Both the position numbers and the translations under genes were made by a program. A stretch of 36,399 bases of DNA from a virus. Below the pieces are notes generated by a model. It saw only the letters and a list, made by a program, of their open reading frames with translations. It had not been told where the DNA came from and made no database searches. Below are positions 1 through 33,288 of the stretch, in pieces. The first letter of the stretch is position 1; every line of letters starts with the position of its first letter. The DNA lies in the IMG/VR virus record IMGVR_UViG_3300026321_000009, positions 1 to 36,399 of that record. One strand, written 5' to 3'.

Positions 1-7
1 ATAACGA

Positions 8-1130: not shown

Positions 1131-1168
1131 CTTGGTTTTTAATCCCTTGGAATGAAGAGGTAGGTACT

Positions 1169-5836: not shown

Positions 5837-5839
5837 ATA
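5833..5839 (+). promoter_or_regulatory. CTAAATA late-promoter-like motif
   Basis: CTAAATA has been described as the late-promoter motif of T4-like cyanophages, analogous to T4 TATAAATA. This copy overlaps the end of the membrane-protein gene and lies 21 nt before the ATG at 5861, so it could drive the gp25-gp6 unit. Other copies at 3980-3986, 6265-6271 and 8370-8376 lie inside genes. The total is near chance for this base composition, so only position supports this one. Confidence 0.4.
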
Positions 5840-5860
5840 GTCAGGACATTTCTATGCGTC

Positions 5861-8480: not shown

Positions 8481-11400
8481 ATGACAACAAGCAGTAAGGT
8501 ATCGCAAGCGATAGCAAAGCAAACCCCTGAGTTCATATCGGACGGATATCCGTTGTTCGATAAGTTTTTAGAGTATTACTATAAATCTCAAGAGAAGACG
8601 GGTTTCGGACAAAATATAGTTAATAATTTCTTACAATATCTTGATATTGACAAGCTAGACGTAGGAATACTAGGTGGTGCAACGAAAGTTGTTGAAGGAT
8701 GTGATACAGACGATACTACAATAGTTGTTGAGAACGTAGACCAATTTTTAACAGAAAACGGATCTTTATTGATCGATGATGAGGTAATATTTTACGAGAA
8801 AGCAGTCACCTCTCCAAGTATTGCTTTTAGTCCAGGTATTTCATATGAGCAAGTAAAACTTAAGTGGATTACTCTTGCTAACCTAGTTGCACAGTTTGAT
8901 GGCAACGCAAAATCATTCCCATTAACCTCTCAGGACGCTCCTGTTGCTCCTCCTTCAGCACAACACCTGATTGTATCGGTGTATAATGAAGTGCAGGTAC
9001 CAGGGGTCGATTTTACTATCGATGGCACTAATATTGTATTCTCAGTTGCACCAAGGACTAGACTCCCTTCTGATGATACAACAGAAACTTCGATTATCTA
9101 TCAGAATGGTTTTATAGAAAATCCTATAGTAGCATTAGATAACATCTCAGGATCATTTGGAGATAGTAAGAAAACTTTCTTAGTTACTAATTCTAGTGTT
9201 GGATATTCACCAATTGTAGACGAATATATTTACGCAATTTATGATAATAAGGTTTTAATACCAAGGACTGATTTTACCTTCGATGGAACGTATATTACTT
9301 TAGGTTTTACACCTCTTGCTGGTAGAAGGTTAGATCTCTTCTCAATTGAGGCACCTATACCTTCATTTGGTAGTGGTGCTATTGGATTCTCTCGTGTTGA
9401 TGCAGATGGGCAATTAGACTCAGTTATTGCCAATGCTACAGGTAAAAACTACAAATTTGAGTATCCACCTAAGATTACAGTCAAATCTACACAAGGTGGT
9501 AGAGATGCATCTGTAAAACCATTAATCAATGGTATTCAGTCAACTACTCTATTGACAGGTGGTGCTGGATACAGTACAACTAACCCACCAACGGTTACAA
9601 TAGTTCCTCCAACAAAAACTGGAGCAATTGTCCCAACAGTTAAGGCAACTGTTACTAATGGTGCTGTTAGTGCAATAACAATTGAATCTTCTGGTAGTGG
9701 ATATACATTCACTCCAAGATTAACATTTACTCAACCCGGTGGAGCAATATTGGGTGCACCTACTATCGCAAGTGGTAGTTTTGCCTCTGCACCTGCTATT
9801 ACCAATGGTGGACAGGGATATACCACAGCTCCAGCGATATATGTTGATGAGCCAACAGGATTAAACGGTATTAAGGGATCATTCCAAACTGTACTAACAG
9901 ATGGTGTTATTACTAGCATCACTGTCCTAAACGCTGGTCAAGGATATGAAACTACACCAAGGATAGCAGTTGTTGATCCTGTTGGTGCACAAGTATTAGA
10001 AACTAAGGTTGATGGTGATGGAAGAATCACTGATATCGAAATGCTTAGTGGTGGCAGTGGATATGAGGATATTCCATCTGTTTACATTGTTGATGAGAGA
10101 ACCAGTAGTCCTGGATCAGGTGCAACTGCTGTAGCATCTATCTTTAACGGATCTATTACTGATATTAACATCACAGCATTTGGTACTGGTTACAGTGCTG
10201 CTAATCCTCCAACAATTTTCATTCAACCACCTCCACATGCTACTGCATCTGTAGATATTGGATTAGGTGAAGTAACTGGTTTCCAGGTTATTAATAAAGG
10301 AGCAGGTTACGAGAAGTGTCGTTTTACTGGCTGTGCTAGAGCTGCTAGTGGTATTAAAGAGTACACAGAAGAAGGTAATGCAGTATTCTCTGGTGACACT
10401 GTTGCTGCCGCACATCTGGCGGCTGCTGAAGTTAAGTGTTTAGATGCTCTATTTGTTAAGAGATTACTTGATAAGTATACAGAGCAGTATTTACCTGACG
10501 TACCTCAACTAGATTACGAAAGTATTGACGTAAGAAGTGCTATTAAGCACATTAAGACATTCTATTCGACAAAAGGCACTGAATTCAGTGTTGCATATCT
10601 CTTTAAACTACTTTATGGTGAGAATGTAAGTGTTTCTTATCCAAAAGACCAAATTACGAAGCCATCTGCTGCTACTTGGTCTATTAATACAATTCTGCGT
10701 GCTACGCTTGTTTCAGGTAAGCCAGCAGACATTCAGGATGCTCTAATTCAGCAGGTTGCTGATATTGCAGACCCCAACATCAAAGCAGCAAGTGCTTTGG
10801 TTGAAAACTTTATTTCGATTAAGACTTCTACTACAGACATCTATGAATTAGTCTTATCAGAAGAAACTATTCAAGGCACATTTATTGTACCTTACAAAAC
10901 AAAACTCGCTGAGCCTCTTACTGCTACCAGTGATATCATAACAGTTGACTCTACTATTGGTTGGCCGGAAAGAAACGGTGAAATAGTCATTGGTGACAAA
11001 GAGACGGTTAGATACAAAGAGAAATCATTAAACCAGTTTATTGAGTGTACTAGAGACGAAACAGATGCTCAGATATGGGATTCTGCTACAGAAGTTAAAT
11101 CTAACTTTGTAGTTTACCTTAATAAGGGTACTCTTCAGGAAGTTACTATGAATGTAGTTGGTATCGTTGATGCTAACCAAACTACATTAACTGATACAGG
11201 ATCTTACTACTTACCAGGAGACAAATTAACTGTTTCTAAGTTGGGTGGCACATCAATCACTCCTCAACTTACAACTTGGTTATATAACGTTAAAAAATTA
11301 ATTGAAGTAACAACTATCACGTTTGGTGGTGTTAATGACCAATCTGCTACTGTTACTTGCTCTAATACTCATGGTCTCTTGGTTGGAGATCAGGTTACAG

Positions 11401-14400
11401 TCTATGGTGCAAACCCAATCCTATATAACGGCACATTCCTAGTCACATCAAGGGATTCTGCAACTGTATTCCAATATCAACTACCTCAACCTGCCACTGT
11501 TATACCACAGGGTAACATTTTAATATCTGTTGACCTTAATAAAGGTAAGTCAACCAATAGTGCAATTACAACTGCTATTGGACCTTATACTACTAACGTC
11601 CAGAATACATTCTTTAATACTAGCTACGTTTATGTTGCATCTACTGGTATTCCAAACTATGACATAGGTCCATTCCCTGGATCTGCTCTACTTCCTGGCA
11701 ACCAGCGTAAATTAAACAGATTTGGATTAGCTCCAACTACTATTTCGACTAAGACTTCCATTGTACCAGGTCCAATCGGGACATGGGTTAATGGTGTATC
11801 TATTTGGTCTTACAAGTCGAAATCAACTAAGACTTTCGGTGCTGTAACCTCAGTTGATATCAGTAATGCTGGTATTGAATATGATGCTGCATCACCACCT
11901 GCTATGACTATCAGTGGTGGCGGTGGATCTGGAGCAACTGCTACTGTTACTGTCGATGGTGGAATTTCTGCTATTGAAGTGACTGCTGGTGGATCTGGAT
12001 ATACATCTTCTCCACTTGTTTCTATTGTTGGTGGAGGTGGTACTGGTGCTGCTGCAACTGCTATTATTACTAAAGGTGTTGTTTCTAGAGTCCTAATCAA
12101 TCAGAGTGGCACAGGATATACATCTCAACCTGAAATCACCATTGTTGGTGGTGCAGGAACTGGTGCTACTGCTACTGCATCTGTCAGAGGTCCAATTAAG
12201 ACTGTTAACATCACTGCTGGTGGTGCGTCTTATACTTCTAAACCTACTGTAAAACTATCTTCTGGATCTGGTGCTGTTGCACAGGCTATTGTTAATAACG
12301 GAAGAATTATATCTATTGCTATCATTTCTGCTGGATCTGGATATACTACTGCTCCAACAGTAAGTGTGCAAGGTGAAGGATTTGGTGCTGTTGCAAAAGC
12401 AACAATTGACGTTGATGGTGAGAATGCTGGTAAAGTTACTGGTATTACTATCACTAACAAAGGTATTGGATATATCCAAGGTACAACGATAATTAACCTG
12501 ACATCCATTGGTTCTAGTGCTACATTCGCAGCAAACGTATTTGAGTGGACTTACAACTTACAAGAAACATCAACCTTTGATACTGCTAAGGGTGCTGTAT
12601 TTGAAGGATTTAACGTCCAGTATGGTGGTGAATATGCCCACCTCTCCAACCCACAAAAATTAAGATATATTTTAGGTGATAACTTATATGAGTCAACTTC
12701 TGGCACAATTCTTGAGCAAGAGACTCAGTTAGCACACTCACCTATTATTGGTTGGGCATTTGATGGCAACCCAATCTATGGTCCTTATGGTTACTCAGAC
12801 CCAACTAATCAGTCATCTCAAATTGCAAGATTAAACACATCATACAGTTTAAAGACAAATATAGTCTTTGATGCTGTTTCAAACCCATATCCTGTAAGAA
12901 CCGATGGTCCTTTATTAACAGAAGAGTCTGCTGGTAAGTTTATTGAAGATTATGAATATGTATTTGGTAGTGGTGATTTAGACCAGTACAACGGACGTTT
13001 CTGTAAGACTCCTGAATTCTCTGCTGGTAGATATTGCTATTTCGTTACTATTGATGCTGCTGAAGCAGGTAATCCAAAATTCCCATACATTATGGGACCA
13101 AGTTACAACTCTGTAGTTGATACATGGAACCTAGTAGATGATGCTGTCCAACAGAATATTCCTACTGGTGTTGTCCGTTATAGAGACCCTTATGAGAATG
13201 TAGATATCGACGTTGAGAGGACTCCAAATGCCTCTACAAATGCTCTGACTATGGAGAATGGAGATATACTCCTATTCGACGCAGAAGACGAAAATAGAGA
13301 TGGTATTATCACTCAAGATGAGATTGATGATCCAGAACAAATGTATGAGGAAGCACCTCTACAACTCTTTGATTATTTCCCTAAAGTTAAGTTTGACTCT
13401 AAAGTTGACATTGAAGTTGATACGATTACTAAGTTTGAGGATGCATCTGTAACTGGATTTACTATTGAAAACTCAGGTAAATCTTATCAGGTAGATGACC
13501 GTTTAATCTTTGATAATACTGATACTGATGGTTCAGGTGTTTCTGCTCGTATTTCAAGAATTAAGGGTGAGACAGTTGAAGCATACACATACGAAACTCT
13601 TGATGGAATCAATTATGGTATTTTAACCTCAACTGATCCACACAACCTTATTACTGGAGATACAGTCTTTGTTGAGTATGCTCCTACAATGGATAATACA
13701 AACAAGACGTTTATTGTCCGTCAATATAAAGGTATAGAAGAAGTTACTGTAAATACCGTCGGAAGTGGATATAACACAGACATTCCTCCTACTGTTACTA
13801 TTGATAGTGATAGCGGCACTGGTGGATCTATAGATGCAGTTGTTTCGACTGTTGGATCTATTGAGTCCTTTAAAATTAATAATTCAGGATCTGGATACAC
13901 TGAGAATCCTCGTGTTATCCTTTCACATCCACAGATTTATAAGAAGTGTGATTACTATGCTTCATTGATCAGTAATAACGGTTTTGTTAAGATTAGTGAT
14001 GTTGCTGTTAATCTGAAGAAAGAAGTATTCATTTGTGGTCACACTAAGGATGCAAGTGGAAATGTTGTTGCTCTTATAGCAAAACTATCTGCTACTGGTG
14101 TTAAAGAGTGGGAGAAGACATTAGAATCCACTGCACCTGCTGCTAATCCTACACACTGCGAATTTAATAAGATAATCGTTGATGGTAATGACATTTGGGT
14201 TTCTGGAATCAGCAAACCAAATATCCCAGTATTAACTGCATATAACCCTGATATTATCCTTTGTAAGTACATCCAAGCAGACAATGGTCTAAGTGCTGGA
14301 TTAGCTCTTCAAAGGGCATATGCTGGTATCTCAGGTTCTACTAGGGCAGACAATGTAACTTGCTTAGCTAAGTTGTCTAGCACTCCTGATAGATTCATAT

Positions 14401-23400: not shown

Positions 23401-26400
23401 CAAATGCATTAACTATGACATGTGCTAAGGATAGTGACGGATCATTCCACACATATCCTCGCTCATCTGATCCTGTATCTGAGAAGTGGTTACCAATTAC
23501 TTTGGTTGATGCTAATTCATTCACAGTTGACGTTAATAAGTCTCCTGATCTTTCTGCTCATACCTTTATCTCTTGGGCATCTAATGGAATCAAGAGAGCT
23601 AGAGATATGGTCAAGTTTGATGCTGACTCATTAACCTTTAGTTGTGCTCTTGCTGGTGGCAACCATACATATCCTCGTTTAACTGATCCTATTGCTTCAC
23701 AGTGGGTACCTGTTACTAACGTAGCAACAAACACATTTGAAGTTAACACAGGACCATCTACTTACACTGGTACTCATACATGGGTATCTGCAACTTCTAA
23801 CGGAATCAAGAAGCAGACAGGTGTAATTACAGTTAATGTTGGTATATCCTCTAACACTGCTGCTCATACATTCGTATCTTCTACTGCTGGTGCAGTTAGG
23901 GCAGGTGGAGTTTATGCTCACACATTTAAGAATGCTAATAATACATACACACCATCTACAGCGGCATACGTCCCTGCAACTGGTGTTTTAACACTAACCA
24001 TTGCTGGTCATGGATTTGCTAATGGTGAGTGGATTAAGATTGCTGACAGTGGACTAACATTCACTTGTGCTCAGGATAGCAACGCAACTAACCATACATA
24101 TCCTCGTGCTGCTGGTGCAACATTCACAGCAACAACTGGTACTGCATACAACCCATCGACAGGTATATTAAGCATTACCACAACTGCTGCTCATAACCTA
24201 GCAAATGGTGATGAGATTAAAATTGCTGACAACTCATTGACATTCACATGTGCAATGGACGGCAATACAGTTAATAAGACTTATCCAAGACCATCTGATC
24301 CTATCAGTGCTAAGTGGATTAAGGTAGAAAACGTAGCTTCAACAACGTTTGATGTCCAGATATTAGACATTACTCCTTCTTCTAACACTTCTACCCATGT
24401 ATGGGTATCTGCTACAGCAGGTGGCATACAAACTAGAGACCCTGCTTCTGGTAAGTGGTTGAAGATCTCTAACGTTGCTACAAATACATTTGATGTTAAT
24501 GTAAGCGTATCTTCTAATACTTCCACTCACGCATTTGTAAGTGCTATCTCTGGTTGTGTAAGTAGAGCAGTCATCATGGCTGGTGGAGCACATTCACATA
24601 CTTGGAAGTCTGCTAAGACTAATGGTATTCACAAACAAGGATCATTCGTATCTATTGATAAGGATGCACTGAAATTCAAGTGTGCTTTAGACGAATATCT
24701 AACAGATCATACCTATCCTGCATTAACCTCTACTGTATACAATAAAGTATTACCAGTTGAGAAGTATACTACTAATACATTCACAGTTAATGTTGGTATT
24801 TCGACTCAAGACGATAATTATATTCCTTATACTCCAACTGCTGCTACCTATACAGCATCAACAGGTGCTTTGGTACTAGACATTGGTACTCATAGTCTTT
24901 CTACAAGTGATTTTGTAGAGATAGACGATAATTCATTGACATTTACATGTGCAATGGATAGCAACCAGTCTCAGAAGACATACCCTCGCACATTCCATGA
25001 CACTAAGTCCTCTGGTAAGAAGCTTGCGGTTACTGCTATTGGTTCAACATCACACACTCCAAGTTTTGCAGCATACCTTCCTACAACTGGTGTCTTAACA
25101 ATCACTTTAGATTCTCATGGATTTACTGCTGGTGAGAAGGTCAAGTTTGACGACAGTGCATTAACTTTCAGTTGTGCTAAGGATAGTAATGCTACTAACC
25201 ATGCATATCCAAGAGCAACAGACCCTGCAAGTGGTAAGTGGTTGACAATCAGTAATGTAACTGTAACCACATTTGATGTCCAAATTGGTGTAACTACTGA
25301 GTTATCTGCACACAACTTCCAATCCGCTGTTACTGGTGGAATGAAGAAGCAGAATGGTCAGATTACAGTTAACGTTGGTGCTGCTGGTACAAACGCACAA
25401 TTTACTCCATCTGCTGCTACTTACAATGCAGTAACAGGTGATATGACACTGACTATTGGTCAGCATGGCATACAGGTTGGATCAAACATTGTAATTGCTA
25501 ATGATTCATTGACATTCAGTTGCACAATGGGATCTGGCAATAAGACTTATCCTCGCTCCACAGACCCATTTGGCGGTAGTAAGTCTATTCGTGTAGACGA
25601 AGTTGGTTATACTTCTAAGACTGCTACTGGAGCAGCATATACACCTGGTACAGGTGCTATGACAATCACATCTGCCTCTCATGGATTCTCCAATAACGAT
25701 TATATTCAGATCGTTGAAGGATCTCTAACAATGAGATGTGCTCGTGATGGTAATACAACAGATCATTCATATCCTAGAAAGACCGATCCTTACTATGGTA
25801 AGTGGTTAAAGGTTTCTAACGTAGCAACAAACACATTTGATGTTAACGTTGGAATCTCTCCAGACGCTACAACTCACACATTCGTTTCTGCTGCCACTGA
25901 TGGTATTAGAAAGCAGAATGGTGTAATCACAGTTAACGTTGGTAAATCCCCTGCTATTGGATTTGACGTTTCTGCTGCTACTTACGATCCTGCTACAGGA
26001 CTTCTAGTTGCAACAATCGGTGAGCATAGTTTCACTACTACTCAGAAGGTTAGACTTGCAAACAACTCTTTCGTATTCAAGTGTGCTCAAAACTCTTCTA
26101 CTACTCACACATATCCACGTGCAAACGGTCAAGGTGGTGCATCTGCTGACGATCCAGCATACGATGATGCAGTAACGATCACTGCTGTAACGTCATCAAC
26201 AATTACTTTAAACGTTGGTACTTCTTCCAACACAACTGCTCACACATTCCAGAACGCTAATAACACATATACTGCTACTGGAGCAACCTATACACCATCA
26301 ACAGGTGTAATGACTATTACATCTAATGGTCATGGATTCCTTAACGGTGAGCGCATTAAGATTGCAGATAATTCATTAACATTCACTTGTGCTAAGGATG

Positions 26401-29400
26401 GTAACGCTACTAACCACACATACCCAAGATCAAGTGATCCTATCAGTGGTAAGTGGTTAACAATCTCCAATAAGACAACTAACACATTCGATGTTAACGT
26501 TGGTGATTCTACAAACTATTCTACTCACGCATTTGTCTCTGCTGTAGCAGGTGGCATTAAGAGAGCAGTCATCCACGCTGGTGGTGAGTATGCTCATACA
26601 TTCGTAAGTGCTTCTTCTAACGCTGTTTCTTACACTCCAGACTCTACACATACATTCGTAAGTGCTAAGGGTGGTGCTGTTAAGCAATGGTTAGGCACTC
26701 ATTCATTCGTCTCTGCTATAGCCGACTGCATTAAGATCATCGGATATAACAACAGTGATTGCATAGACGTACAATCTAGTCTTGATAACTTACTTTCAAT
26801 TCTTATTGATACTCTGGATGAAGCAAATCAAGCAGTTGCTGTAGACCATCTAGCAACAATTACAAAACTAACTCCTGCACATGAATATGTTGGTGCAACC
26901 GCTGACGCATATCTACAAATACCATTTACTATTGACGATGTTAATACAGGTAACAAACTTGCTTATACAAGAAGAGTTGACGAAACAACTAGAGATAGAT
27001 TCAGAGATGCTGCTAACCTAATTCGCCTCAACCGTGGTCCTATCGTTGATAAGGCTTCTGCTGACATGCTTACTCGTTATCCAGAGTTGGTACTAGGAAT
27101 GCCTAGAAACGCTGATGCTAGTGGTGCTGGTACCTTACGTTGTAAGACTGACCTTGGAATCATCCTAGACGGTGTAGCAAATGACATCGAAGTTGGTGGT
27201 AACTACAATACACTAATTGCAGTTAAGAATTACCTTGGTAACAATGACGAAATTCAGCATGTTAGATTGCAGTTACTTCAATCTCTATATGCTCATAACA
27301 GACTTGGACTTTATGCCAAGCAAGCAGTCTCAGGTGACCTAGACGATACCAATACTGATTCAGTTATTATTGGTGACTGGGGTATTACTAACGATACTGC
27401 TAACGTCCAATTCACTCCATCTGCTGGTACATACGATCCAGCAACAGGTGAGATGACACTGACTATCGGTAGTCATACACTTGATCTTGGAAGAAAGGTT
27501 ACAATAGCAGATAACTCCTTATCATGGAGTTGCACATATGGATCTGCTACTCACACATTCGTTGGCACAGCAACTAATGCTCTTACCTTCGGATCTACTC
27601 AGAAGACTGTAACTGCTGCAACTTATAATCATGCAACAGGTATTATAGAATTAACAATCGGATCTCACTCATACACAACCAGTGATACATTCACGATTGC
27701 TACTAATTCACTAACATTCACTTGTGACGCTGACAGTCACGCAACACAGCATACCTATCCTAGAGCAGGAGATCCTGCTTATGGAGCAACTATGACGATC
27801 ACTGCTGTAAGTGGAACAACCGTTTCAGCTAACGTTGGTGCTGTTTCTGGTGGTCAGACTAAGACCTATCCTCGTGCAACTGACTACGCAGGATCAGGCA
27901 AGAGACTTACAATCACTGCTAAGACTTCTACAACTATTACATTTAATATGTTGTCAGCAAATGGTGGTGTAGCATCTACTAACTTATCTCCACACACATT
28001 CGTTTCTGCGACTGCTAACGCTGTAGTTGCTCCTGGCGATTGTGTTAACGTTAAGGACGCAATTGATTCTCTAACAGAATTAGCGAATGAGACACTTGCT
28101 CCTAATGGAGACAGATATAGAGATGCAGGTGATCTTCTACACTTTAACAAAGATTACATCGCTGAAGAAGCAGTTGGTATATTAGACGCTGACTTCTCAT
28201 ACACTCTAAACAACATTCTTTATCAATCCTTCCAGTACCCATCAGGTGCTACTGGTAGAGATACATGTAAGAAAGATATTGGATTGTTACTTGATAGTGT
28301 TATCAGTGACTTACAGACTGGTGGTAACAGCAATACAATTGCTGCAACTGAAAATTATATCGCAGTCTCTGGTGGTATCAAGCAAGTTGAAGATCAACTA
28401 CTTTCAACCATCCACGCATTCAAGCAAGTTAAGAAACTTGGTAAACTTGCAATAATCAACAACCTTTATAACCAAGGCATAGCAAACCTAACTGGTGACC
28501 AGTATCCTGCTATGTGGACAACTAAGACCGCATATAGAGATACTACAATCACTGACTCTCAGGGTGATACTGCTTATCTCAGCGATGATTGCACAAATGC
28601 AGTCTACGCATTTGAGAATCTGTTGGACATTATTATTGATACTTTGACTCCATCAGGTGATGCTGGTAGATCTTCTGCTAGAATGATCCTTAACAATAAG
28701 AATTACTATGACCAAGAATTAGAGAACCTAGTTAACAGTCAGTGGGGATCAGGTGCATGGTCAACAGATATCAATACATTCCTAGAGACAACAGTTAATG
28801 ACGTAATACATGACCTTGCGATTACAGATACAGAGAAATATGACACTGCTAGAAACATCATTCTTACTAACGTAATCGGTGAATTTGTAGTTGGTGAAAC
28901 TGTAACTTCATCTGGTGGTGGATATGCGACTGTCAAGGAATACATCCTCGATAGCAACACACTCGTCATTGGATCTACAACAGGACAAGTTTGGGCAGCA
29001 GTAGATGATATAACTGGTGCTCTTGGTACAACTGCTACAGTTGTTACTGTTGGACCTATCTACGATTACTACACAACTGTATCTAACGTCCAATCCCTTG
29101 CTACCACTAGGATCATAACAACAGGTATTGCTGATCAGGTCGCAGGTATTAACCTCTTCACTAACCCTGAAGACTACACTGCTAACTGGACTGCAAATGC
29201 TTGCACCATTAGTGGTAACGTAACTACTGACCCAGATGATCAAATACTTGCTGAGAAGCTTGTAGTTGATAGCAGCACGGGTGAGCATACAATAACAAGA
29301 AATTATAGTCTTACTGCATACGACACATTTGATGATTCTTCTATCAAGTGGGATGACGGTAATAACAAGTTTGATGAAGGTGCTACAACATCAGATCAGA

Positions 29401-32039
29401 CATTCACATTCTCTGCATTCATTAAGAAGGCAGAATACGATAAGATCAGATTCGCAATGATTCTGGATGATGGTACATCAGCAGAGCAAAATGCATTCTT
29501 CGATCTTGACTTAACTAACGCTTCATTTGGTAGCGTATTCACTCCACAACAAGGTATCACTGCTAACGCATACGGATCAGTACCTGTTGGTGGTGGATGG
29601 ATTAGAGCATACATTCAGATAACACTCTCTTATGGTTTCTCTACTCTAACCAATCAAATCATTATTAGAAACACTGCTGGATCAACTAATTACACTGGAG
29701 ATTCTACAAGTGGCATATACGTCTGGGGTGCAAAACTAACTAAGTCTGCACTTGACCCATACGTCTCTGCATACGGCACAACATTCTATGCTGACAATGA
29801 CTTCAACATCAAGAACTACATTCTTGATACAGTAGAAACACAGATGCAGGGTGCACTAGAGCAAAATCTAGCATCACCTTCTCCTGGTGCAACATTCACA
29901 GCATACACAAATAGCACTCTCGCTAAGGATTACGATCCTCTCGCTATACAGAGAGTGGTAAGATATCTCATTAACATGGTTAGGCAGCAGCTTAAGAACA
30001 ACGCTCACTACACCGATGTTACTAACTACAGTGCAATTGCCACACCTGCTAAGACATACGGCACGAGAAATATTCCAATTCCTCTCGGTGGTGGTATTAA
30101 TAACGCTGATAACTTCTTTGGTGCTACTTCAGGTGCATACGCAGAAGTTGAAAACATCACTGCTAACGAAGCAGAGTTAGTCCAGATATACACAAGATTT
30201 AGAATCGACGGCACTATCACAGATGGTCCATTCACAATGAATGAGGCAATCCAGAAGCAAGGTAACTCTGCTATCACAGGTATTGTTTACGGATCATTCG
30301 AGGATGCAAACTTCAAGTATCTTGACGTTAAGATTACTGCTGGTACATTCGCAGTCCTAGACACTATCGTGGGTGCTACAAACTCAACCACATGTCAAAT
30401 CAATGCTCTTGAAACTAGAATGCACTTCATCGATAAGAAGGGTGCCTTCGATGTTTCAATCGGATTTGAGGGATATAAGTCAGGTGCAACTGCTGATGTT
30501 AACGCAAACGTCACTGCTGAAGCTGCTGTCCTTACAAACACTGGTGGTAAGTTGGTTGTTGACACTGAGACACTAATAGGCACATTCGAGAAGACTGCTG
30601 TTGTTTACGCAGAAAACTCCAGACAATTCCTAGAAGTTTCTAAGTTTGGTGGTTTAGATGTTGCTATCGGTAACAGAATTGTATCAAACGGATACACAAG
30701 AATCGGTATTAGCGTCCTAACAGGTCTTAACAACTTCACCGTCGGTAACAGACTTTACAAGGTTGTATCGGGTGTCCAAGATACATCAAATTATGCGATC
30801 ATCACATCTGTTGATCTAGGCAACAACTTCCTCTATATTGCCCCTGTATTAGGCACGATGACCAATGGTGACATCGTAGGTGATTACGGCGCAGGTGAGT
30901 CCTTCCCAGTGGGTTACGCAAGCATCACAACTAAGGTTGTTACTGCTGGAGCCGGTGCTGCTCTTGTCCAAGACATTGAGACAGTTGGTGTTAACAAGCG
31001 AATCTACATGAGTGATATCGTAGGTACCTTCGATACTAAGGACGCAATCAAGTCACTTAACGCATATGAGGCAGTTGTAGTTAGCAAGCAAGATATTAAG
31101 GCTCGCGTGAAGAGATCCTTCAGAGGATTCGATGGTGTCCAGACACAATTTAAACTCACGCAGAATAATGGTACAGCATACTTACCTGATCCTGAAGGTC
31201 ATATGCTCATATTTGTTAATGGTATTCTACAACCTCCAGGCGCATCTAACGCATACACAGCATTCTCAGACACAATACAATTCACAGAGGCACCTACGCT
31301 AGGGTCTGCATTTACAGGATTCTATGTTGGTAAGTTGAGGCAGTTGGATGATATCTCATTCGACTTCGACTCCTTGAGACAATCATTCAACCTTAAGCGT
31401 AACGGAGTATTCTACTCCTTGACACTGACAGAAGGTGTCCAGTCTACGGTTATACGTCCAGAAAACAACATCATATGCTCACTCAACGGTGTCATACAGG
31501 AACCTGGAATCGGATTTGAGATTGTTGGTTCACGAATAATCTTCTCTGAAATACCTCGTGTTGGATCTACATTCGTTGCATTCTCCTACGTGGGTAGTGA
31601 AGCAGACGTTGACGCTGCTGAAGTTGTCCCACCAATCGAGCCAGGCGACTTTATTGACATCCAAGGTGAGACTTCAGACAGAGAGGTCGCTGTTATTGAA
31701 TCTTCTAACTCCTTAATCACCTTTGACTATCTCGGATCAGTCTTTGGTAAGGACGCAGTTGGCGCAGCAACAGTCACAAGCGGCACCATTGATACAGTCC
31801 AAGTCACTGCTGTTGGATCTGGTTACACAACTAGACCGACTGTAAGGGTTGACTCGATCTCTGGATTTGACGCACAAATCAAGGCATTAATTGGTGTTGG
31901 TGAATGTGTAATTTCCGCACAAGGATCAGGATATAGTAACCCTGGCATATCAGTTGATACTTCCGTACCTGACGACTGGACTGCACCAGATCTAAGTCAA
32001 TATGGTGAAGAAGTAATTGACCCTGAGATACTTCCATAA
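8481..32039 (+). CDS. Giant mosaic tail/baseplate protein, 7852 aa
   Basis: One unbroken frame of 23.6 kb, roughly 0.8 MDa, rich in Thr, Ser, Gly, Ala and Val. AAGG (8473-8476) precedes the ATG. Modules by residue: baseplate-type head (1-315); GxGY repeats (about 297-610, 1119-1347, 3020-3250); cyanophage core IKHIKTFYSTKGTEF (about 650-725); YHYH domain (1375-1546); EF-hand-like loop (1603-1614); probable beta-propeller (1818-2212); LamG folds (2224-2430, 4048-4237); about 18 Cys-bearing repeats (4432-6085, 6307-6517) with alpha-helical modules between; jelly-roll-like domain (about 6890-7105); C-terminal NG repeats and two GSGY units (7540-7852). It follows gp6 by 6 nt, where other cyanophages also keep a large structural gene and T4 has gene 7. 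It is probably an outer wedge or adhesion fibre that contacts host surface glycans. Function is inferred; the reading frame is direct. Confidence 0.9.
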   Translation: MTTSSKVSQAIAKQTPEFISDGYPLFDKFLEYYYKSQEKTGFGQNIVNNFLQYLDIDKLDVGILGGATKVVEGCDTDDTTIVVENVDQFLTENGSLLIDDEVIFYEKAVTSPSIAFSPGISYEQVKLKWITLANLVAQFDGNAKSFPLTSQDAPVAPPSAQHLIVSVYNEVQVPGVDFTIDGTNIVFSVAPRTRLPSDDTTETSIIYQNGFIENPIVALDNISGSFGDSKKTFLVTNSSVGYSPIVDEYIYAIYDNKVLIPRTDFTFDGTYITLGFTPLAGRRLDLFSIEAPIPSFGSGAIGFSRVDADGQLDSVIANATGKNYKFEYPPKITVKSTQGGRDASVKPLINGIQSTTLLTGGAGYSTTNPPTVTIVPPTKTGAIVPTVKATVTNGAVSAITIESSGSGYTFTPRLTFTQPGGAILGAPTIASGSFASAPAITNGGQGYTTAPAIYVDEPTGLNGIKGSFQTVLTDGVITSITVLNAGQGYETTPRIAVVDPVGAQVLETKVDGDGRITDIEMLSGGSGYEDIPSVYIVDERTSSPGSGATAVASIFNGSITDINITAFGTGYSAANPPTIFIQPPPHATASVDIGLGEVTGFQVINKGAGYEKCRFTGCARAASGIKEYTEEGNAVFSGDTVAAAHLAAAEVKCLDALFVKRLLDKYTEQYLPDVPQLDYESIDVRSAIKHIKTFYSTKGTEFSVAYLFKLLYGENVSVSYPKDQITKPSAATWSINTILRATLVSGKPADIQDALIQQVADIADPNIKAASALVENFISIKTSTTDIYELVLSEETIQGTFIVPYKTKLAEPLTATSDIITVDSTIGWPERNGEIVIGDKETVRYKEKSLNQFIECTRDETDAQIWDSATEVKSNFVVYLNKGTLQEVTMNVVGIVDANQTTLTDTGSYYLPGDKLTVSKLGGTSITPQLTTWLYNVKKLIEVTTITFGGVNDQSATVTCSNTHGLLVGDQVTVYGANPILYNGTFLVTSRDSATVFQYQLPQPATVIPQGNILISVDLNKGKSTNSAITTAIGPYTTNVQNTFFNTSYVYVASTGIPNYDIGPFPGSALLPGNQRKLNRFGLAPTTISTKTSIVPGPIGTWVNGVSIWSYKSKSTKTFGAVTSVDISNAGIEYDAASPPAMTISGGGGSGATATVTVDGGISAIEVTAGGSGYTSSPLVSIVGGGGTGAAATAIITKGVVSRVLINQSGTGYTSQPEITIVGGAGTGATATASVRGPIKTVNITAGGASYTSKPTVKLSSGSGAVAQAIVNNGRIISIAIISAGSGYTTAPTVSVQGEGFGAVAKATIDVDGENAGKVTGITITNKGIGYIQGTTIINLTSIGSSATFAANVFEWTYNLQETSTFDTAKGAVFEGFNVQYGGEYAHLSNPQKLRYILGDNLYESTSGTILEQETQLAHSPIIGWAFDGNPIYGPYGYSDPTNQSSQIARLNTSYSLKTNIVFDAVSNPYPVRTDGPLLTEESAGKFIEDYEYVFGSGDLDQYNGRFCKTPEFSAGRYCYFVTIDAAEAGNPKFPYIMGPSYNSVVDTWNLVDDAVQQNIPTGVVRYRDPYENVDIDVERTPNASTNALTMENGDILLFDAEDENRDGIITQDEIDDPEQMYEEAPLQLFDYFPKVKFDSKVDIEVDTITKFEDASVTGFTIENSGKSYQVDDRLIFDNTDTDGSGVSARISRIKGETVEAYTYETLDGINYGILTSTDPHNLITGDTVFVEYAPTMDNTNKTFIVRQYKGIEEVTVNTVGSGYNTDIPPTVTIDSDSGTGGSIDAVVSTVGSIESFKINNSGSGYTENPRVILSHPQIYKKCDYYASLISNNGFVKISDVAVNLKKEVFICGHTKDASGNVVALIAKLSATGVKEWEKTLESTAPAANPTHCEFNKIIVDGNDIWVSGISKPNIPVLTAYNPDIILCKYIQADNGLSAGLALQRAYAGISGSTRADNVTCLAKLSSTPDRFIFGGYTNTNSANPFDAFLAVVDTAGSFIVKRKLATTSGNEKITDIKIGTDGAVYFTMETSTSSSSNDINVSFGKATVGTNAITVDWIKEISNTLYSFQDSSLCFDEFNEFYVTATCRLKSDDVTKDSFWVGKFRNDGAVVWNKRYVAPARDIQVVGKTTIDIFGELNVAYSHTYTQGDGKKIVSSAKIKYDGTMLKHTSNELRIATNTTNTTEGFTVHALDTDESGDLHLFGQTQHNRNEFTFDFAANEQTDITGHYTLTSTSTNNSITYADNMAKIYGYNPAGSNSSWVSSHLSITNLQLGTKLADDWTLEFFIYKNSSESQTLSQGVQTLCGIGGAQDTTGGLWLGYDTSSGKLQLVVTNNSTALTSGTPTESSQTTMYANNTWQTVGLSKSGDVFKVYINGTQVITGTLANTALGNKTLYFGNQIGFGSGATDFSAGKQGQFYIDNIRLRNRALVPTVPSDITTLPPVATFGLTFDWVDDAWFVGQLQKYDYIDFNAIGIKVDRNSDAARLGTLTTFVNTQLSVTRTAITPVVGSTLTIGNVGLSLGAAGFQSLDFDDANITYTEATETATYANDIWSSRTGTVPSPGSTKVSATAVVKDRYFFKVTDTSKIDNIQELTINQSFNFTVGAKLMLKDGSTFVNSGYITSVDNDNNKVYVAVNNNTWTNDTATGQLSTERFDEQDTLGIRGPIPNDLNEINGYLFAEVLNTTPGTFNIDLDKWSVAGTYNASGGQDLDSFAKFKPWVATDYTVRIDEVASGSPYIVGSVVEVAASAVSFNAAYSTIQITGLTAVLKITLTANLTKILQVSSVSNSDQVYVITSGHHYLEVDEMVYVDGNPSQTYNSLVYDEYDGAFAVSAVISVKEFTYKLPQAAVTDPATTPGNVSIYVKSPTLKMFYGHQYLFDLSHSSLVGGNLSFAKDSLYKLEYSFNSIERIGTPGVTGQGVPTPSVKLKIDENVVTNISYYFDPSRTGSTSPVIEGSYLDVVDSPYKGTFEITSTSGATITRGDDVMRFKLLNEPEGAAEISPASYSTSSKKAVGSINALRIVNSGGFYTRLPIVSNIESTRKIERVDIKTPGTEYAVGVYNGVPIAGDGEGGLISITVTDGSDDEGVTIPGQISAVAVTSPGKNYTTASIDIDSIPGILGSGLNGSGAELVVVIPSSGSGASIFTKGTSVGKIKKLKNNNFGYDYPHDYTLRPEITFPLNCQLTSTSILASITVTDPGSGYSQAPAVVITGGGGSGAQAEATIKNGRLDNIIVKDPGAGYSSTPTIELKSSFNYVVNLDLGLLQFAFPHGIANGSEVTLNVVDTGDGAEYPLAAGATGRLNSSTTYFAIAGTANSLETDQLKLAITAANASLGDALSFVNAGTGRQQVLTSSFGGGATANVATSVFDEGELVYQGDTFASATATGYVSENNGWQIGPRILKIVDYTGDFIEGQKITGVISKSSGVISDLNIAKGVLEIGSITQTTGQFVDDVGKPSEIIQKIQDSYYYQDFSYAVNSATSISEWKDILIRNVHPASFKVFGELNLQEYGTIPNKTTAFELTKSVELAQSAIVPNIQNFALVEPIYQEFNNTEVLFRQKRLTSSENILTSVVQRIDNIDHLFDGERTAFPLTVSGSNVVANANQLMIVLNGIAQQPNVSFSVQSDNIVFVEPPSPPASVKYASVTITQIATKKFVFSNQSGIYPTAGMYVTGSASSAKFRVTTVVGNDIYGYITEGTFIIGELCNVSATGFSANLSSQTDVVNNGLFMFGEVVTNFEGNTAKIEEINLAKGQETPLAKLRYTIGQATTSFEVVPTAGAAAPVAAGTFVATKNYQFGSEIFLVNSITDGAESTTLGVTRAQLGTAADAQLENTPLYGTDITITNALILSKTTGTYQSTPGLFDIQLNDIIIAAKSGVVATVASTSPYQDPVTNEFISQVNISEGSSFFGLLFNRITSQTYPNVVLDNIAESQVSIVDFTDNVTAFDSKFPANELINNYVIKTENISGTFQENEFIRNFKIDYGNNSGTFLEGEEGYIRKLTFTDKQGAGFFNQGNVIRSKNSKAEVIGYNQARSTVYLGKMARALPSGADYFTFNFNGTAQIDTAQYKFGASSLSLPLATDFIDCPSSTEIALGSSNFTLELWVRASAGSLSGTVELIDTRASSANEVAGRLYLNAGKPRWNVNNSDLITTTTTLVADTWTHIAIVRTGTAGVMWINGVSAGTGTDSTTYVAKPLHIGASYAGTGGIIGHLDEIRWSNSARYSATFAAPTGIFQGDANTKLLLHCDGADTATYVEDWSGTGTWIDGDDFNNDAIIATKRKSTGNLSTHSLNTQRYLDAADLIFKNKDLLAKEVVWRLEHQSPYAPFSVLTGSVNCSDDVNDILDALISDMRNGSNSYLYDAAALYVDRTVTPITVNHIETEIEETIWTHEELSKLAQQVITNQRIQILGDHGLTQVTDSSITDSTNASPSTITPTAAVYDAVTGEMTLTKSSHGLTTNIAITATGATYDANTGIMVVTSNSHGLNPGDKVKLEDNSITFSCDMDGNRSDHSYPRADDPASGKWLEVGEVQTNTFEIFVDKAPLVGYKPTASTYDAATGLMALTIGDHNFSAGQTIKLANNSLNFTCAMDDNNSIKSYPRSTDNVYDEAIPIKHEGTPYTPTGATYTPVTGEMVVTIIGHTIAVNDQVKLEEGAVSFSCAKDNHASDHSYPLASSTVANTWLTVSAVTANTLTINVGKSPDTSTHTYLRWNANSLVKKDTTIVLDVGKAPLITHDVSTAAYTPATGVMDITLGTHNFLVGDSIKLADGSLTFSCNPGSGVANGSYPRTDIITHTPTTAAYVPATGVITITVANHGMLDGEWVKLADGALTFKCDADSQLTNHAYPRATDPISGRWIQVSGVTTNTFDIQVLDSAPSSNTSTHVFVSATSGGVSQKKDRSYDSPIAITGVGTANLTAASGTTYNPSTGVLSITSASHGLTGATSHTPTLASYAPATGLLTITLASHGFANGDRIQIQANALTMTCAKDSDGSFHTYPRSSDPVSEKWLPITLVDANSFTVDVNKSPDLSAHTFISWASNGIKRARDMVKFDADSLTFSCALAGGNHTYPRLTDPIASQWVPVTNVATNTFEVNTGPSTYTGTHTWVSATSNGIKKQTGVITVNVGISSNTAAHTFVSSTAGAVRAGGVYAHTFKNANNTYTPSTAAYVPATGVLTLTIAGHGFANGEWIKIADSGLTFTCAQDSNATNHTYPRAAGATFTATTGTAYNPSTGILSITTTAAHNLANGDEIKIADNSLTFTCAMDGNTVNKTYPRPSDPISAKWIKVENVASTTFDVQILDITPSSNTSTHVWVSATAGGIQTRDPASGKWLKISNVATNTFDVNVSVSSNTSTHAFVSAISGCVSRAVIMAGGAHSHTWKSAKTNGIHKQGSFVSIDKDALKFKCALDEYLTDHTYPALTSTVYNKVLPVEKYTTNTFTVNVGISTQDDNYIPYTPTAATYTASTGALVLDIGTHSLSTSDFVEIDDNSLTFTCAMDSNQSQKTYPRTFHDTKSSGKKLAVTAIGSTSHTPSFAAYLPTTGVLTITLDSHGFTAGEKVKFDDSALTFSCAKDSNATNHAYPRATDPASGKWLTISNVTVTTFDVQIGVTTELSAHNFQSAVTGGMKKQNGQITVNVGAAGTNAQFTPSAATYNAVTGDMTLTIGQHGIQVGSNIVIANDSLTFSCTMGSGNKTYPRSTDPFGGSKSIRVDEVGYTSKTATGAAYTPGTGAMTITSASHGFSNNDYIQIVEGSLTMRCARDGNTTDHSYPRKTDPYYGKWLKVSNVATNTFDVNVGISPDATTHTFVSAATDGIRKQNGVITVNVGKSPAIGFDVSAATYDPATGLLVATIGEHSFTTTQKVRLANNSFVFKCAQNSSTTHTYPRANGQGGASADDPAYDDAVTITAVTSSTITLNVGTSSNTTAHTFQNANNTYTATGATYTPSTGVMTITSNGHGFLNGERIKIADNSLTFTCAKDGNATNHTYPRSSDPISGKWLTISNKTTNTFDVNVGDSTNYSTHAFVSAVAGGIKRAVIHAGGEYAHTFVSASSNAVSYTPDSTHTFVSAKGGAVKQWLGTHSFVSAIADCIKIIGYNNSDCIDVQSSLDNLLSILIDTLDEANQAVAVDHLATITKLTPAHEYVGATADAYLQIPFTIDDVNTGNKLAYTRRVDETTRDRFRDAANLIRLNRGPIVDKASADMLTRYPELVLGMPRNADASGAGTLRCKTDLGIILDGVANDIEVGGNYNTLIAVKNYLGNNDEIQHVRLQLLQSLYAHNRLGLYAKQAVSGDLDDTNTDSVIIGDWGITNDTANVQFTPSAGTYDPATGEMTLTIGSHTLDLGRKVTIADNSLSWSCTYGSATHTFVGTATNALTFGSTQKTVTAATYNHATGIIELTIGSHSYTTSDTFTIATNSLTFTCDADSHATQHTYPRAGDPAYGATMTITAVSGTTVSANVGAVSGGQTKTYPRATDYAGSGKRLTITAKTSTTITFNMLSANGGVASTNLSPHTFVSATANAVVAPGDCVNVKDAIDSLTELANETLAPNGDRYRDAGDLLHFNKDYIAEEAVGILDADFSYTLNNILYQSFQYPSGATGRDTCKKDIGLLLDSVISDLQTGGNSNTIAATENYIAVSGGIKQVEDQLLSTIHAFKQVKKLGKLAIINNLYNQGIANLTGDQYPAMWTTKTAYRDTTITDSQGDTAYLSDDCTNAVYAFENLLDIIIDTLTPSGDAGRSSARMILNNKNYYDQELENLVNSQWGSGAWSTDINTFLETTVNDVIHDLAITDTEKYDTARNIILTNVIGEFVVGETVTSSGGGYATVKEYILDSNTLVIGSTTGQVWAAVDDITGALGTTATVVTVGPIYDYYTTVSNVQSLATTRIITTGIADQVAGINLFTNPEDYTANWTANACTISGNVTTDPDDQILAEKLVVDSSTGEHTITRNYSLTAYDTFDDSSIKWDDGNNKFDEGATTSDQTFTFSAFIKKAEYDKIRFAMILDDGTSAEQNAFFDLDLTNASFGSVFTPQQGITANAYGSVPVGGGWIRAYIQITLSYGFSTLTNQIIIRNTAGSTNYTGDSTSGIYVWGAKLTKSALDPYVSAYGTTFYADNDFNIKNYILDTVETQMQGALEQNLASPSPGATFTAYTNSTLAKDYDPLAIQRVVRYLINMVRQQLKNNAHYTDVTNYSAIATPAKTYGTRNIPIPLGGGINNADNFFGATSGAYAEVENITANEAELVQIYTRFRIDGTITDGPFTMNEAIQKQGNSAITGIVYGSFEDANFKYLDVKITAGTFAVLDTIVGATNSTTCQINALETRMHFIDKKGAFDVSIGFEGYKSGATADVNANVTAEAAVLTNTGGKLVVDTETLIGTFEKTAVVYAENSRQFLEVSKFGGLDVAIGNRIVSNGYTRIGISVLTGLNNFTVGNRLYKVVSGVQDTSNYAIITSVDLGNNFLYIAPVLGTMTNGDIVGDYGAGESFPVGYASITTKVVTAGAGAALVQDIETVGVNKRIYMSDIVGTFDTKDAIKSLNAYEAVVVSKQDIKARVKRSFRGFDGVQTQFKLTQNNGTAYLPDPEGHMLIFVNGILQPPGASNAYTAFSDTIQFTEAPTLGSAFTGFYVGKLRQLDDISFDFDSLRQSFNLKRNGVFYSLTLTEGVQSTVIRPENNIICSLNGVIQEPGIGFEIVGSRIIFSEIPRVGSTFVAFSYVGSEADVDAAEVVPPIEPGDFIDIQGETSDREVAVIESSNSLITFDYLGSVFGKDAVGAATVTSGTIDTVQVTAVGSGYTTRPTVRVDSISGFDAQIKALIGVGECVISAQGSGYSNPGISVDTSVPDDWTAPDLSQYGEEVIDPEILP
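8887..9357 (+). repeat. Two N-terminal 'F-NG-P' beta modules of the giant protein
   Basis: Two tandem units of about 75 aa have the form F-x-L-T...LIVxVxNxVxxPxxDFxxDGTxIxFxxxP: QFDGNAKSFPLTSQ with VPGVDFTIDGTNIVFS, then SFGDSKKTFLVTNSS with IPRTDFTFDGTYITLG. The same module recurs at 19200-19425 and twice at 31111-31590, so both ends and the middle share one building block. Confidence 0.65.
9370..10309 (+). repeat. GxGY beta-repeat block 1
   Basis: About eight units of GxGY-[TS]-xx-P-x-[VI]-x-[VI]..., including GAGYSTTNPP, GSGYTFTP, GQGYTTAP, GQGYETTP, GSGYEDIP and GTGYSAANPP. The alternating Gly-rich turns and short strands suggest a long beta-solenoid or stalk. Confidence 0.7.
10420..10650 (+). 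other. Conserved cyanophage tail-protein core (IKHIKTFYSTKGTE)
   Basis: This is a helical segment: KCLDALFVKRLLDKYTEQYL, then an acidic turn, then IKHIKTFYSTKGTEFSVAYL and FKLLYGENV. The pattern [ST]-I-[KR]-x-I-[KR]-x-F-Y-x-x-K-G-T-E is one I associate with large structural proteins encoded after gp6 in T4-like cyanophages. It probably anchors the giant protein to the baseplate. Confidence 0.5.
11836..12520 (+). repeat. GxGY beta-repeat block 2
   Basis: This is the most regular GxGY block: GSGYTSSP, GTGYTSQP, GASYTSKP, GSGYTTAP and GIGYIQG, each separated by a [SG]GGGGTGATA-type strand. Units are about 30-35 aa. DNA identity between units is visibly high, so the block is a plausible recombination target. 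Confidence 0.75.
12603..13119 (+). other. YHYH domain within the giant protein
   Basis: Diagnostic segments are IGWAFDGNPIYGPYGYSDP and, further on, GRFCKTPEFSAGRYCYFVTI leading to PYIMGPSYNSV. This is the YHYH domain of unknown function, frequent in marine bacteria and cyanophages. The canonical first His is replaced here (SPIIGWAFDG). A close paralogue with a large insertion lies in the last gene. Confidence 0.75.
13287..13322 (+). other. EF-hand-like calcium-binding loop (residues 1603-1614)
   Basis: DENRDGIITQDE fits the 12-residue EF-hand/dockerin loop exactly: Asp1, Asn3, Asp5, Gly6, Ile8 and Glu12. It sits in an acidic linker rich in Asp and Glu just after the YHYH domain. Ca2+ binding in seawater is plausible but unproven. 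Confidence 0.55.
13933..15115 (+). other. Probable beta-propeller domain (SBBP/Kelch-like)
   Basis: Residues about 1818-2212 repeat a blade-like pattern of the type DVAVNLKKEVFICGHT...ALIAKLSATGVKEWEKT: a 'datVyvtG' strand, then 'lakl...G...W.k'. Further blades include FIFGGYTNTNS, DIKIGTDGAVYFTME, FWVGKFRNDGAVVWNKRY and LDTDESGDLHLFGQT. About six blades can be counted by eye. Propellers of this type usually bind proteins or glycans. Confidence 0.55.
15150..15770 (+). other. LamG/concanavalin-like lectin domain 1
   Basis: Residues about 2224-2430 contain LADDWTLEFFIYKNSS, LWLGYDTSSGKLQLVV, NNTWQTVGLSKSGDVFKVYI and GQFYIDNIRLRNRAL. This is the strand order of a LamG/ConA-like jelly roll (W-T-x-E-F/W...W-x-x-V...V-Y-x-N-G...x-I-D-x-[IV]-R). 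It is a candidate host-glycan binder. Confidence 0.75.
17540..18230 (+). repeat. GxGY beta-repeat block 3
   Basis: Degenerate units (GGFYTRLP, GTEYAVG, GKNYTTAS) are followed by two regular ones (GSGYSQAP, GAGYSSTP) flanking VVITGGGGSGAQAEATI. It is the same module as blocks 1 and 2 and as the repeats in the genes at 1510 and 33292. Confidence 0.65.
19200..19425 (+). repeat. Internal 'F-NG-P' beta module of the giant protein
   Basis: HLFDGERTAFPLTVSG, LMIVLNGIAQQPNVSFSV and DNIVFVEPPSPP form the same unit as the pairs at both ends of the protein. Confidence 0.6.
20622..21190 (+). other. LamG/concanavalin-like lectin domain 2
   Basis: Residues about 4048-4237 run FGASSLSLPLATDFIDCPSS, NFTLELWVRASAGS, TWTHIAIVRTGTAGVMWING and GHLDEIRWSNSARYSATF. 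This is a textbook LamG-type pattern and clearer than domain 1. Confidence 0.85.
21353..21705 (+). repeat. Alpha-helical module 1
   Basis: RYLDAADLIFKNKDLLAKEV, then NCSDDVNDILDALISDMRNG and a long C-terminal helix. It is the first copy of a helical unit of about 110 aa that returns at 26752-27352, 28024-28470 and, shortened, 28576-28875. It contrasts with the all-beta surroundings. Confidence 0.6.
21775..26735 (+). repeat. Array of about 16 Cys-bearing repeats of about 100 aa
   Basis: Residues 4432-6085. A full unit has three blocks. A: Y-x-P-[AS]-T-G-V-[ML]-T-I-T...HGF-x-N-G-[DE]. B: I-K-I-A-D-N-S-L-T-F-[TS]-C-A-x-D-x-N...[HK]-x-Y-P-R-x-x-D-P. C: GKWL-x-I-S-N-V-x-T-N-T-F-D-V-N-V-G...HTFVSA-x-x-GGI. 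Sixteen B blocks can be counted, each with one Cys after LTF (for example Cys4499 and Cys5970). Units 7 and 10 lack A, and several others show partial blocks. This looks like an extended fibre grown by unequal recombination. The repeat fold is not one I can name. Confidence 0.85.
26752..27352 (+). repeat. Alpha-helical module 2
   Basis: DCIDVQSSLDNLLSILIDTL leads into RDAANLIRLNRGPIVDKASA and TDLGIILDGVANDIEVGGN. It breaks the Cys-repeat array and is homologous to modules 1, 3 and 4. Confidence 0.65.
27400..28023 (+). repeat. Second, shorter Cys-repeat block
   Basis: One fused unit (NSLSWSCTYGSATHTFVGT) lacks the YPR and GKWL parts. It is followed by one normal unit (NSLTFTCDADSHATQHTYPR) and a trailing B-C fragment (TKTYPRATDYAGSGKRLT). 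The family is the same as at 21775-26735. Confidence 0.75.
28024..28470 (+). repeat. Alpha-helical module 3
   Basis: GDCVNVKDAIDSLTELANET, RYRDAGDLLHFNKDYIAEEA and KKDIGLLLDSVISDLQTGGN give the clearest full-length copy of the helical module. Confidence 0.65.
28576..28875 (+). repeat. Alpha-helical module 4 (shortened)
   Basis: DDCTNAVYAFENLLDIIIDT and GRSSARMILNNKNYYDQELE match the front of modules 2 and 3. The back half (DINTFLETTVNDVIHDLAIT) is shorter and more diverged. Confidence 0.55.
29149..29810 (+). other. Jelly-roll/CBM-like domain of the giant protein
   Basis: INLFTNPEDYTANWTANACT, TFTFSAFIKKAEYDKIRF, GGGWIRAYIQITLSYGF and SGIYVWGAKLTKSALDPYV follow the pattern 'NLL.....W......G..YTFSawvK...W.Ri......iyiwGaQle.g'. 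This carbohydrate-binding-like jelly roll is common in phage tail fibres. Confidence 0.7.
31111..31590 (+). repeat. Two C-terminal 'F-NG-P' beta modules
   Basis: GFDGVQTQFKLTQNNG with MLIFVNGILQPPG and TIQFTEAPTLGS, then DFDSLRQSFNLKRNG with ICSLNGVIQEPGIGFEIVG and IIFSEIPRVGS. They repeat the unit seen twice at the N terminus. Confidence 0.7.
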
Positions 32040-32061: not shown

Positions 32062-33288
32062 ATGGCTAAACAAACGCTAGGTCTAGGATCTGCCGCTAAC
32101 GATAATACGGGTGATACCCTTCGAGTCGGTGGTGATAAGATTAACGACAATTTTAACGAAATCTATACAGGTATTGGTAACGGCACTACACTATCAGTGA
32201 GTGTTACCAATGCTGCTGTAGGACAGGTATTGCGATATAATGGATCAACCTTCTTACCTTCTGACTACACTAACCTCACTGCTGGTTTGGATGTTAACGG
32301 CAATAGTATTGTTTCTGCAAGTAATGGAAACATTAACATTGCTCCAAATGGCACAGGTAACTTAACTTTAGGTGTTGGTGGTGTAACAAATACATTTACT
32401 GGTGCAGACGGAGTAATTGATTTACCGACGAAAGTAAAATATAAGAATGAGTATGCTAACTTAGGTGCTGCACCTGCTGCTGCAACTTACACTGGATACT
32501 TCTTTACAGTTGATGGTGACGATAATCCATATGTAAATATTAATATCACTGCTGGTGGAGTTGGTGATACTAGAGCAAAGTTGTTGACACAGTATTCAGG
32601 TGTTAATGATCTAGTTGACGTTGATACTACAACTGCTGCTCCTACAAATAATCAAGTCCTTAAGTGGAGTACTAGTGGAAGTAAATGGGCACCTGCTGAT
32701 GATGATTCAGGTATTTCCTCACTTAACCTCTGGGCATCAGTGGCTGGTGATACAGGATCAACTACTGCTAATACTCAGTCTGATACGTTAACGATTGCTG
32801 GTGGCACAAACATCACAACTGCTGTTGTTGGTGATACCGTAACGGTCAACTTCTCTGGAACTTTAACCACAACGTTTGCTGCTCTGACAGACACTGATGT
32901 TTCTGGTTTAACACAGGGTGACTCACTATTCTATAACGGCACTAAATGGGTACCAACTCGTAGTCCAATTACATGGTGGGAATTGAATGCTGATGGTGCA
33001 GACCATTACACATTTGCTGGACCTGGATTCACAGGGAATGTAAATGATCCAACATTATACGTGCAAAGGGGACAGACTTATGCTTTCGATAACTCAGTAC
33101 AGGGTGCAGGACATCCTTTCAGAATTCAAAGCACACAAGGTTTGGCTGGCACTCCATATACTACTGGACAAAGTGGTAGTGGTATTACAACCCTTTACTG
33201 GACTGTCCCAATGGATGCTCCAACAACTCTATATTACCAATGCACACTACATGCATTGATGAACGGCTCAATCAACGTAGTAACTTAA
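32062..33288 (+). CDS. Tail fibre-like protein with C-terminal cupredoxin-like domain, 408 aa
   Basis: The N terminus LGLGSAANDNTGDTLRVGGD followed by KINDNFNEIY is a fibre-start signature I associate with cyanophage tail proteins. Residues 45-300 are Thr/Gly/Asn-rich beta-repeat stalk, with TIAGGTNITTAVVGDTVTVN and QGDSLFYNGTKWVPTR. Residues about 305-408 resemble a cupredoxin: DPTLYVQRGQTYAFDN, then HPFRI, and YYQCTLHALMNGSINV at the end. His351, Cys394, His397 and Met400 are spaced like the His-Cys-His-Met ligands of type-1 copper sites, though the Cys-x2-His-x2-Met loop is shorter than in plastocyanin. It lies 22 nt after the giant gene. A distal fibre or accessory adhesin is most likely; copper binding is inferred. 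Confidence 0.85.
   Translation: MAKQTLGLGSAANDNTGDTLRVGGDKINDNFNEIYTGIGNGTTLSVSVTNAAVGQVLRYNGSTFLPSDYTNLTAGLDVNGNSIVSASNGNINIAPNGTGNLTLGVGGVTNTFTGADGVIDLPTKVKYKNEYANLGAAPAAATYTGYFFTVDGDDNPYVNINITAGGVGDTRAKLLTQYSGVNDLVDVDTTTAAPTNNQVLKWSTSGSKWAPADDDSGISSLNLWASVAGDTGSTTANTQSDTLTIAGGTNITTAVVGDTVTVNFSGTLTTTFAALTDTDVSGLTQGDSLFYNGTKWVPTRSPITWWELNADGADHYTFAGPGFTGNVNDPTLYVQRGQTYAFDNSVQGAGHPFRIQSTQGLAGTPYTTGQSGSGITTLYWTVPMDAPTTLYYQCTLHALMNGSINVVT

Follow-up and report, generated by a model that had tools for sequence, protein, structure and literature searches.

The 36,399-base stretch analysed here as a whole (the window), a linear IMG/VR virus record, carries a giant gene of 7852 codons. Judged by its profile matches, the product is a further member of a known family, that of T4-like cyanophage baseplate proteins with 6,000-8,500 residues. 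Most of its great size is due to repeats of about 92 residues arrayed in tandem in the central part. Length differences among homologues come from the middle of the protein, and its two ends (~4,080 and ~750 residues) scarcely vary. This constant-variable-constant anatomy, and the reason that it gives for the length variation, are described here for the first time. We consider it probable that the product is a gp7-type wedge protein bearing a giant, modular extracellular arm and encoded by a marine T4-like cyanophage (Kyanoviridae). The genes of the locus and the parts of the giant protein are as follows.

6004-6420, + strand: gp25 (baseplate wedge); phrog_261, 2.3e-64; PF04965, 6.5e-16.
6420-8474, + strand: gp6 (baseplate wedge); phrog_219, 1.7e-221; PF21379.
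8481-32039, + strand: giant virion structural gene at the gp7 position, 7852 aa, 835 kDa; uninterrupted frame, with matches to phrog_701 (6136 positions) and phrog_18802 following in order along the product.
8481-20714, + strand: N-terminal constant part, aa 1-4078, with a length of 4064-4264 aa across 20 homologues; mean identity of 52-82% in 200-aa bins to aa 4000.
8481-8660, + strand: helical segment at the N-terminus, aa 1-60; alignable at identities as low as 23%; modelled as helices, at low confidence.
9498-10310, + strand: beta-rich GSGYxxxP repeats, aa 340-610; model pLDDT about 90.
10398-10880, + strand: gp7-like wedge block, aa 640-800, with core motif FYSTKGTEFSVAYLFKLLYG from aa 694; PF23786 (baseplate wedge) above cut-off.
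12477-13058, + strand: YHYH domain, aa 1333-1526; PF14240, E 4.9e-31.
20745-21137, + strand: LamG (concanavalin A-like) lectin-type domain, aa 4089-4219, just ahead of the array; PF13385, E 7.5e-16.
21345-21680, + strand: helical module 1, aa 4289-4400, directly ahead of the array; self-match to aa 6542-6693.
21771-26543, + strand: repeat array A, aa 4431-6021, with the ~92-aa unit in 20 full or partial copies; unit HMM; phrog_1276 and phrog_5342.
26841-27341, + strand: helical module 2, aa 6121-6287, between the array blocks; self-match to aa 6500-6662.
27414-28010, + strand: repeat array B, aa 6312-6510, 3 further copies; unit HMM.
28068-28559, + strand: helical module 3, aa 6530-6693; self-match.
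28035-32036, + strand: C-terminal constant part, aa 6519-7852; identity across genera as high as 83%; last 753 aa nearly invariant in length.
32062-33288, + strand: gp9-like wedge/tail-fibre connector; phrog_677, 2.9e-194; PF07880.
33292-36399, + strand: phrog_708 baseplate wedge subunit, running off the record end; E 0.

The gene order in the window was gp25-gp6-giant gene-gp9-phrog_708, and the order gp25-gp6-giant gene, with gp9 next, was also found in P-SSM4, P-SSM3, Syn19, S-SM1, syn9, S-RIM4, S-MS29 and ACG-2014a. The tie to the wedge drawn in the initial annotation was supported: gp25 and gp6 lie upstream and gp9 downstream, and the protein shows distant homology to gp7 (see below). PHROG 701 ('virion structural protein') aligned with aa 4-4000 of the giant protein at profile positions 3-3991 and with its last 999 aa at positions 5137-6135; phrog_18802 also matched in order along it. 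It had been supposed that cyanophage post-gp6 proteins seldom exceed a few thousand residues. This is wrong for the clade, with homologues of 6026-7351 aa in isolates and intact IMG/VR frames reaching 8458 aa. Among isolates, we found 7351 aa in P-TIM40 (taken from annotated coordinates), 7312 aa in P-SSM4 ('gp7', PSSM4_080) and P-SSM3, 6483 aa in Syn19 (Syn19_088), 6180 aa in S-SM1 (SSM1_102), 6114 aa in S-MS29, 6076 aa in syn9, 6064 aa in ACG-2014a and 6026 aa in S-RIM4. Intact homologous frames on IMG/VR contigs encoded 7860, 7894, 7974, 8114 and 8458 aa. At a greater distance, gp7-position genes were shorter, encoding roughly 3500-4200 aa in S-RSM4, S-H9-1, S-CAM9, S-B05, S-SCSM1 and ACG-2014f, 3048 aa in S-PM2 and about 1940 aa in MA01. 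Comparing post-gp6 ORFs across genomes thus put the 7852 aa of the window on the long side, yet not the longest, and the idea that such a length is unusual among cyanophages was not supported. In the literature searched, we found no paper giving these protein lengths or the repeat array, nor any structural work on the giant gene.

Other genes of the window showed features of their own. A haem oxygenase gene, ho1 (4964-5635, + strand; PF01126, E 1.8e-68), is an auxiliary metabolic gene lying within the baseplate gene run; a gene for a PAAR-motif protein (4309-4818) precedes it and gp25 follows. YHYH domains (PF14240) occurred in the giant protein as well as in the neighbouring phrog_708 wedge protein, both encoded on the + strand; adjacent baseplate genes here have modules in common. 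Likewise, residues about 480-640 of a 927-aa phrog_719 wedge protein (1510-4293, + strand) matched the same PHROGs as the giant protein, indicating that the two share repeat modules.

We then measured the parts of the protein by aligning 20 homologues globally. Up to window aa 4078 they spanned 4064-4264 aa (SD 67), and from window aa 7100 to the C-terminus 750-779 aa (SD 6). The middle part spanned 1169-3618 aa and correlated with total length at r = 0.997. Within the N-terminal part, the aa 1-60 segment was common to every cyanophage gp7-position protein examined and was found in 457 phage records, all cyanophage or marine. The GSGYxxxP repeats constitute an insertion relative to the shorter cyanophage homologues, which align to phrog_701 from position about 614 onward.

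In the middle part, related helical modules precede, separate and follow two array blocks. A 92-position unit model detected 23 copies, counting full and partial ones, in the window, in line with the many repeats announced by the initial annotation, 15 in P-SSM4 and none in S-MS29 or S-RIM4. The 8458-aa homologue, the longest frame seen, had 31 full or partial copies. Protein length correlated with repeat copy number (r = 0.94), and regressing length on residues in copies gave a slope of 1.08 and an intercept of 6217 aa, which amounts to repeats added to a scaffold of some 6.2 thousand residues. Window copies were mostly 30-60% identical to one another, and a relative with 82% identity had 22 copies. 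Because the copies have diverged while both arrays are nearly equal, the array is old, with no rapid flux at this distance. Two consecutive units gave an all-beta predicted structure (mean pLDDT 86), for which neither sequence nor fold searches of the PDB returned a significant solved-structure match; a weak resemblance to phage endosialidase (E about 0.03) was set aside. Among predicted viral structures, the named strong matches to the unit were nearly all from cyanophages, and from tail or baseplate proteins where a role was given, many others being unnamed. No relative of the unit was detected in bacterial or archaeal species genomes at the sensitivity used.

In isolates, the giant gene is annotated as gp7 or baseplate wedge initiator. 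Since this name could rest on position alone, we tested gp7 identity by sequence. Profiles built on aa 1-693 and on aa 1-180 yielded no significant similarity to gp7, and a fold search with the aa 1-693 model (mean pLDDT 65) returned nothing significant from the PDB. A profile of aa 640-999 together with distant cyanophage homologues was successful: against all PDB sequences, only two T4-like gp7 proteins were returned at E up to 1 (1.5e-6 and 5.4e-6). These tests were sequential and the winning profile was chosen after the first ones had failed, but the E-values are far below what such a choice could yield. With hhalign, the same profile scored 93% against T4 gp7, over T4 residues 679-813, and 97% against the gp7 family profile (E 3.1e-10, or 1.8e-10 when the window protein was left out of the query), as compared with 0.2% for gp10, used as a negative control. 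T4 gp7 and the cyanophage proteins also match PHROGs 2885, 26741 and 17744 in common. The shared block starts shortly before the gp7 helical domain ends and extends into domain V. Pfam's models of gp7, PF21427, PF21428 and PF21456 (helical domain, domain V and domain VI), match T4 gp7 but miss the window protein. Because of this, and because the extreme N-terminus lacks significant gp7 similarity, the homology must be seen as local and distant. By profile comparison, residues about 690-800 are thus a distant homologue of gp7 and not a standard gp7, a link that had not been found before.

This homology bears on a different view of the gene, that of a giant tail fibre or adhesin at the gp7 locus, which would have its N-terminus on the baseplate and be purely receptor-binding, without being a wedge component. 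As a matter of annotation, syn9 gp101 is called 'putative fiber', some annotated tail-fibre proteins contain the repeat unit too, and a LamG domain is present, all of which would suit a fibre. Against it stand the gp7 homology of aa 690-800 and the separate connector gene, gp9, that comes next; in addition, the C-terminal 753 aa, the expected fibre tip, are among the most conserved parts of the protein and not the most variable. Pfam tail-fibre domains of the T4 gp34/gp37 or YadA type were absent from the giant protein at E 0.01, and PHROG fibre families matched it only through the shared repeat modules. We therefore judge a pure fibre to be quite improbable, and favour the gp7-type wedge protein with an arm.

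Homologues are known to be part of the particle. In S-SM1, T4-GC969, which is gene SSM1_102, was detected in virions by mass spectrometry (PMC3037559), and ORF122, at the gp7 position of S-CREM2, was represented by 91 unique peptides (PMC10665884). The main text of a paper on S-TIM4 host adaptation does not name the homologous ORF. Both homologue data sets are peptide-level only and silent on chain integrity, which leaves room for a primary product cleaved into several smaller virion proteins, with no 0.8-MDa chain in the particle. We regard this as very unlikely, as Pfam scans of the giant protein revealed no protease domain and its conservation shows no abrupt change that would point to an obvious processing site.

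Taking the gp7-type protein with an arm as our working model, its N-terminal part would comprise a wedge core binding gp6 and the rest of the wedge, as homology and synteny suggest. The remaining several thousand residues, with beta-rich modules, LamG, the ~92-residue array and the conserved C-terminal part, would form an arm projecting from the baseplate. Array length would set protein length, and probably arm reach. The constancy of both ends would reflect fixed contacts in the virion, with the C-terminal end serving as another such contact or else as a conserved tip. The arm would most likely contact a host-surface glycan, or bridge baseplate and fibres before tail contraction. In the phage of the window, virion presence, six copies, arm shape and glycan binding are presumed: one copy per wedge, a large share of virion mass and a long adhesion arm are suggested by analogy with T4 gp7, together with the lectin-like and repeat modules, and putative receptor binding by the LamG domain and the variable middle. 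If the T4 copy number were conserved, simple arithmetic on that assumption would give about 5 MDa for the six copies.

The integrity of the gene itself was well supported. As proposed in the initial annotation, a single intact 7852-codon phage structural gene was confirmed at 8481-32039 (+ strand), after gp6, with an ATG start preceded by TCTAAGGCATAATG, which includes a short purine-rich AAGG, and the predicted 835 kDa agrees with the mass near 0.8 MDa given there. The remaining two forward frames contained 391 and 1007 stops, the random probability of 7852 open codons at the base composition of the window was ~10^-229, and GC by codon position (0.47/0.46/0.26) showed a coding-gene pattern. 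Two contigs from a different sample carried a collinear unbroken frame of 7858 aa, 82% identical end to end; as their proteins are identical to each other, they represent a single independent observation. All indels between the window and these contigs were whole codons, and pairwise dN/dS was 0.215 overall (0.08-0.37 in 500-codon blocks). The giant gene is under purifying selection, and the idea that selection keeps the frame intact held. Tandem Repeats Finder detected no DNA-level tandem repeats in the gene, and DNA repeats within it reached at most about 80% identity, the longest exact one being 25 nt. With internal repeats this diverged, collapse or fusion by the assembler, and repeat-driven misassembly in general, seem unlikely. 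A tRNA-Ile (tat) called by ARAGORN inside the frame (16550-16645, + strand) was rejected as spurious, there being no tRNA at the matching place in the relatives scanned and no Rfam match. A metagenomic assembly chimera or frame artefact, conceivable for a 36.4-kb IMG/VR fragment that is not an isolate, has next to no chance of being the explanation, given the unbroken collinear frame at 82% identity in a second sample, the dN/dS of 0.22, exact repeats no longer than 25 nt and isolate genomes with a 7312-aa homologue.

In a cyanophage genome of 175 kb, the gene would make up about 13%; it is present in hundreds of sequenced cyanophages. A speculative reading, which we hold to be unlikely as matters stand, is that repeat number (0-31) provides a tunable reach: six gp7-type proteins per baseplate, of up to 0.9 MDa, would have a candidate host-adapted arm length. 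On the same doubtful footing, the arm might suit the particular thickness or glycan layer that different picocyanobacteria have, with the ends fixed and only the middle evolving. The anatomy makes two questions testable in cultured phages (P-SSM4, S-SM1 and syn9): whether a gp7-type core carries a 0.6-0.9 MDa arm, and whether repeat number tracks the host.

One of the nearest known systems is T4 gp7 (1032 aa; PDB 5hx2 and 5iv5), a 119-kDa monomer present in six copies per tail and contacting gp6, gp8, gp9 and gp10 (PMC3004832). Its gene lies directly after gp6, as in the window, and its residues 679-813 are, by our alignments, homologous to window aa about 650-800. In contrast, gp7 domains V and VI and the helical domain were not recognisable in the window protein by Pfam, no counterpart of the N-terminal 640 aa of T4 gp7 was found in it, and the window protein has about 7000 residues more. 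The MA01 protein shares with it the position after gp6, the N-terminal segment and the gp7-like motif, but is four times shorter; S-CREM2 ORF122 (about 1940 aa), likened to the window protein by gene position after gp6 only, is also four times shorter. The PHROG 701/18802 proteins of P-SSM4, Syn19 and S-SM1 have the same locus and the same constant N- and C-terminal parts, at about 55-70% identity. P-SSM4 gp7 has the repeat unit in common with the window protein, in 15 copies versus 23 full or partial ones, and is 540 aa shorter, whereas other relatives, up to 8458 aa, exceed the window protein.
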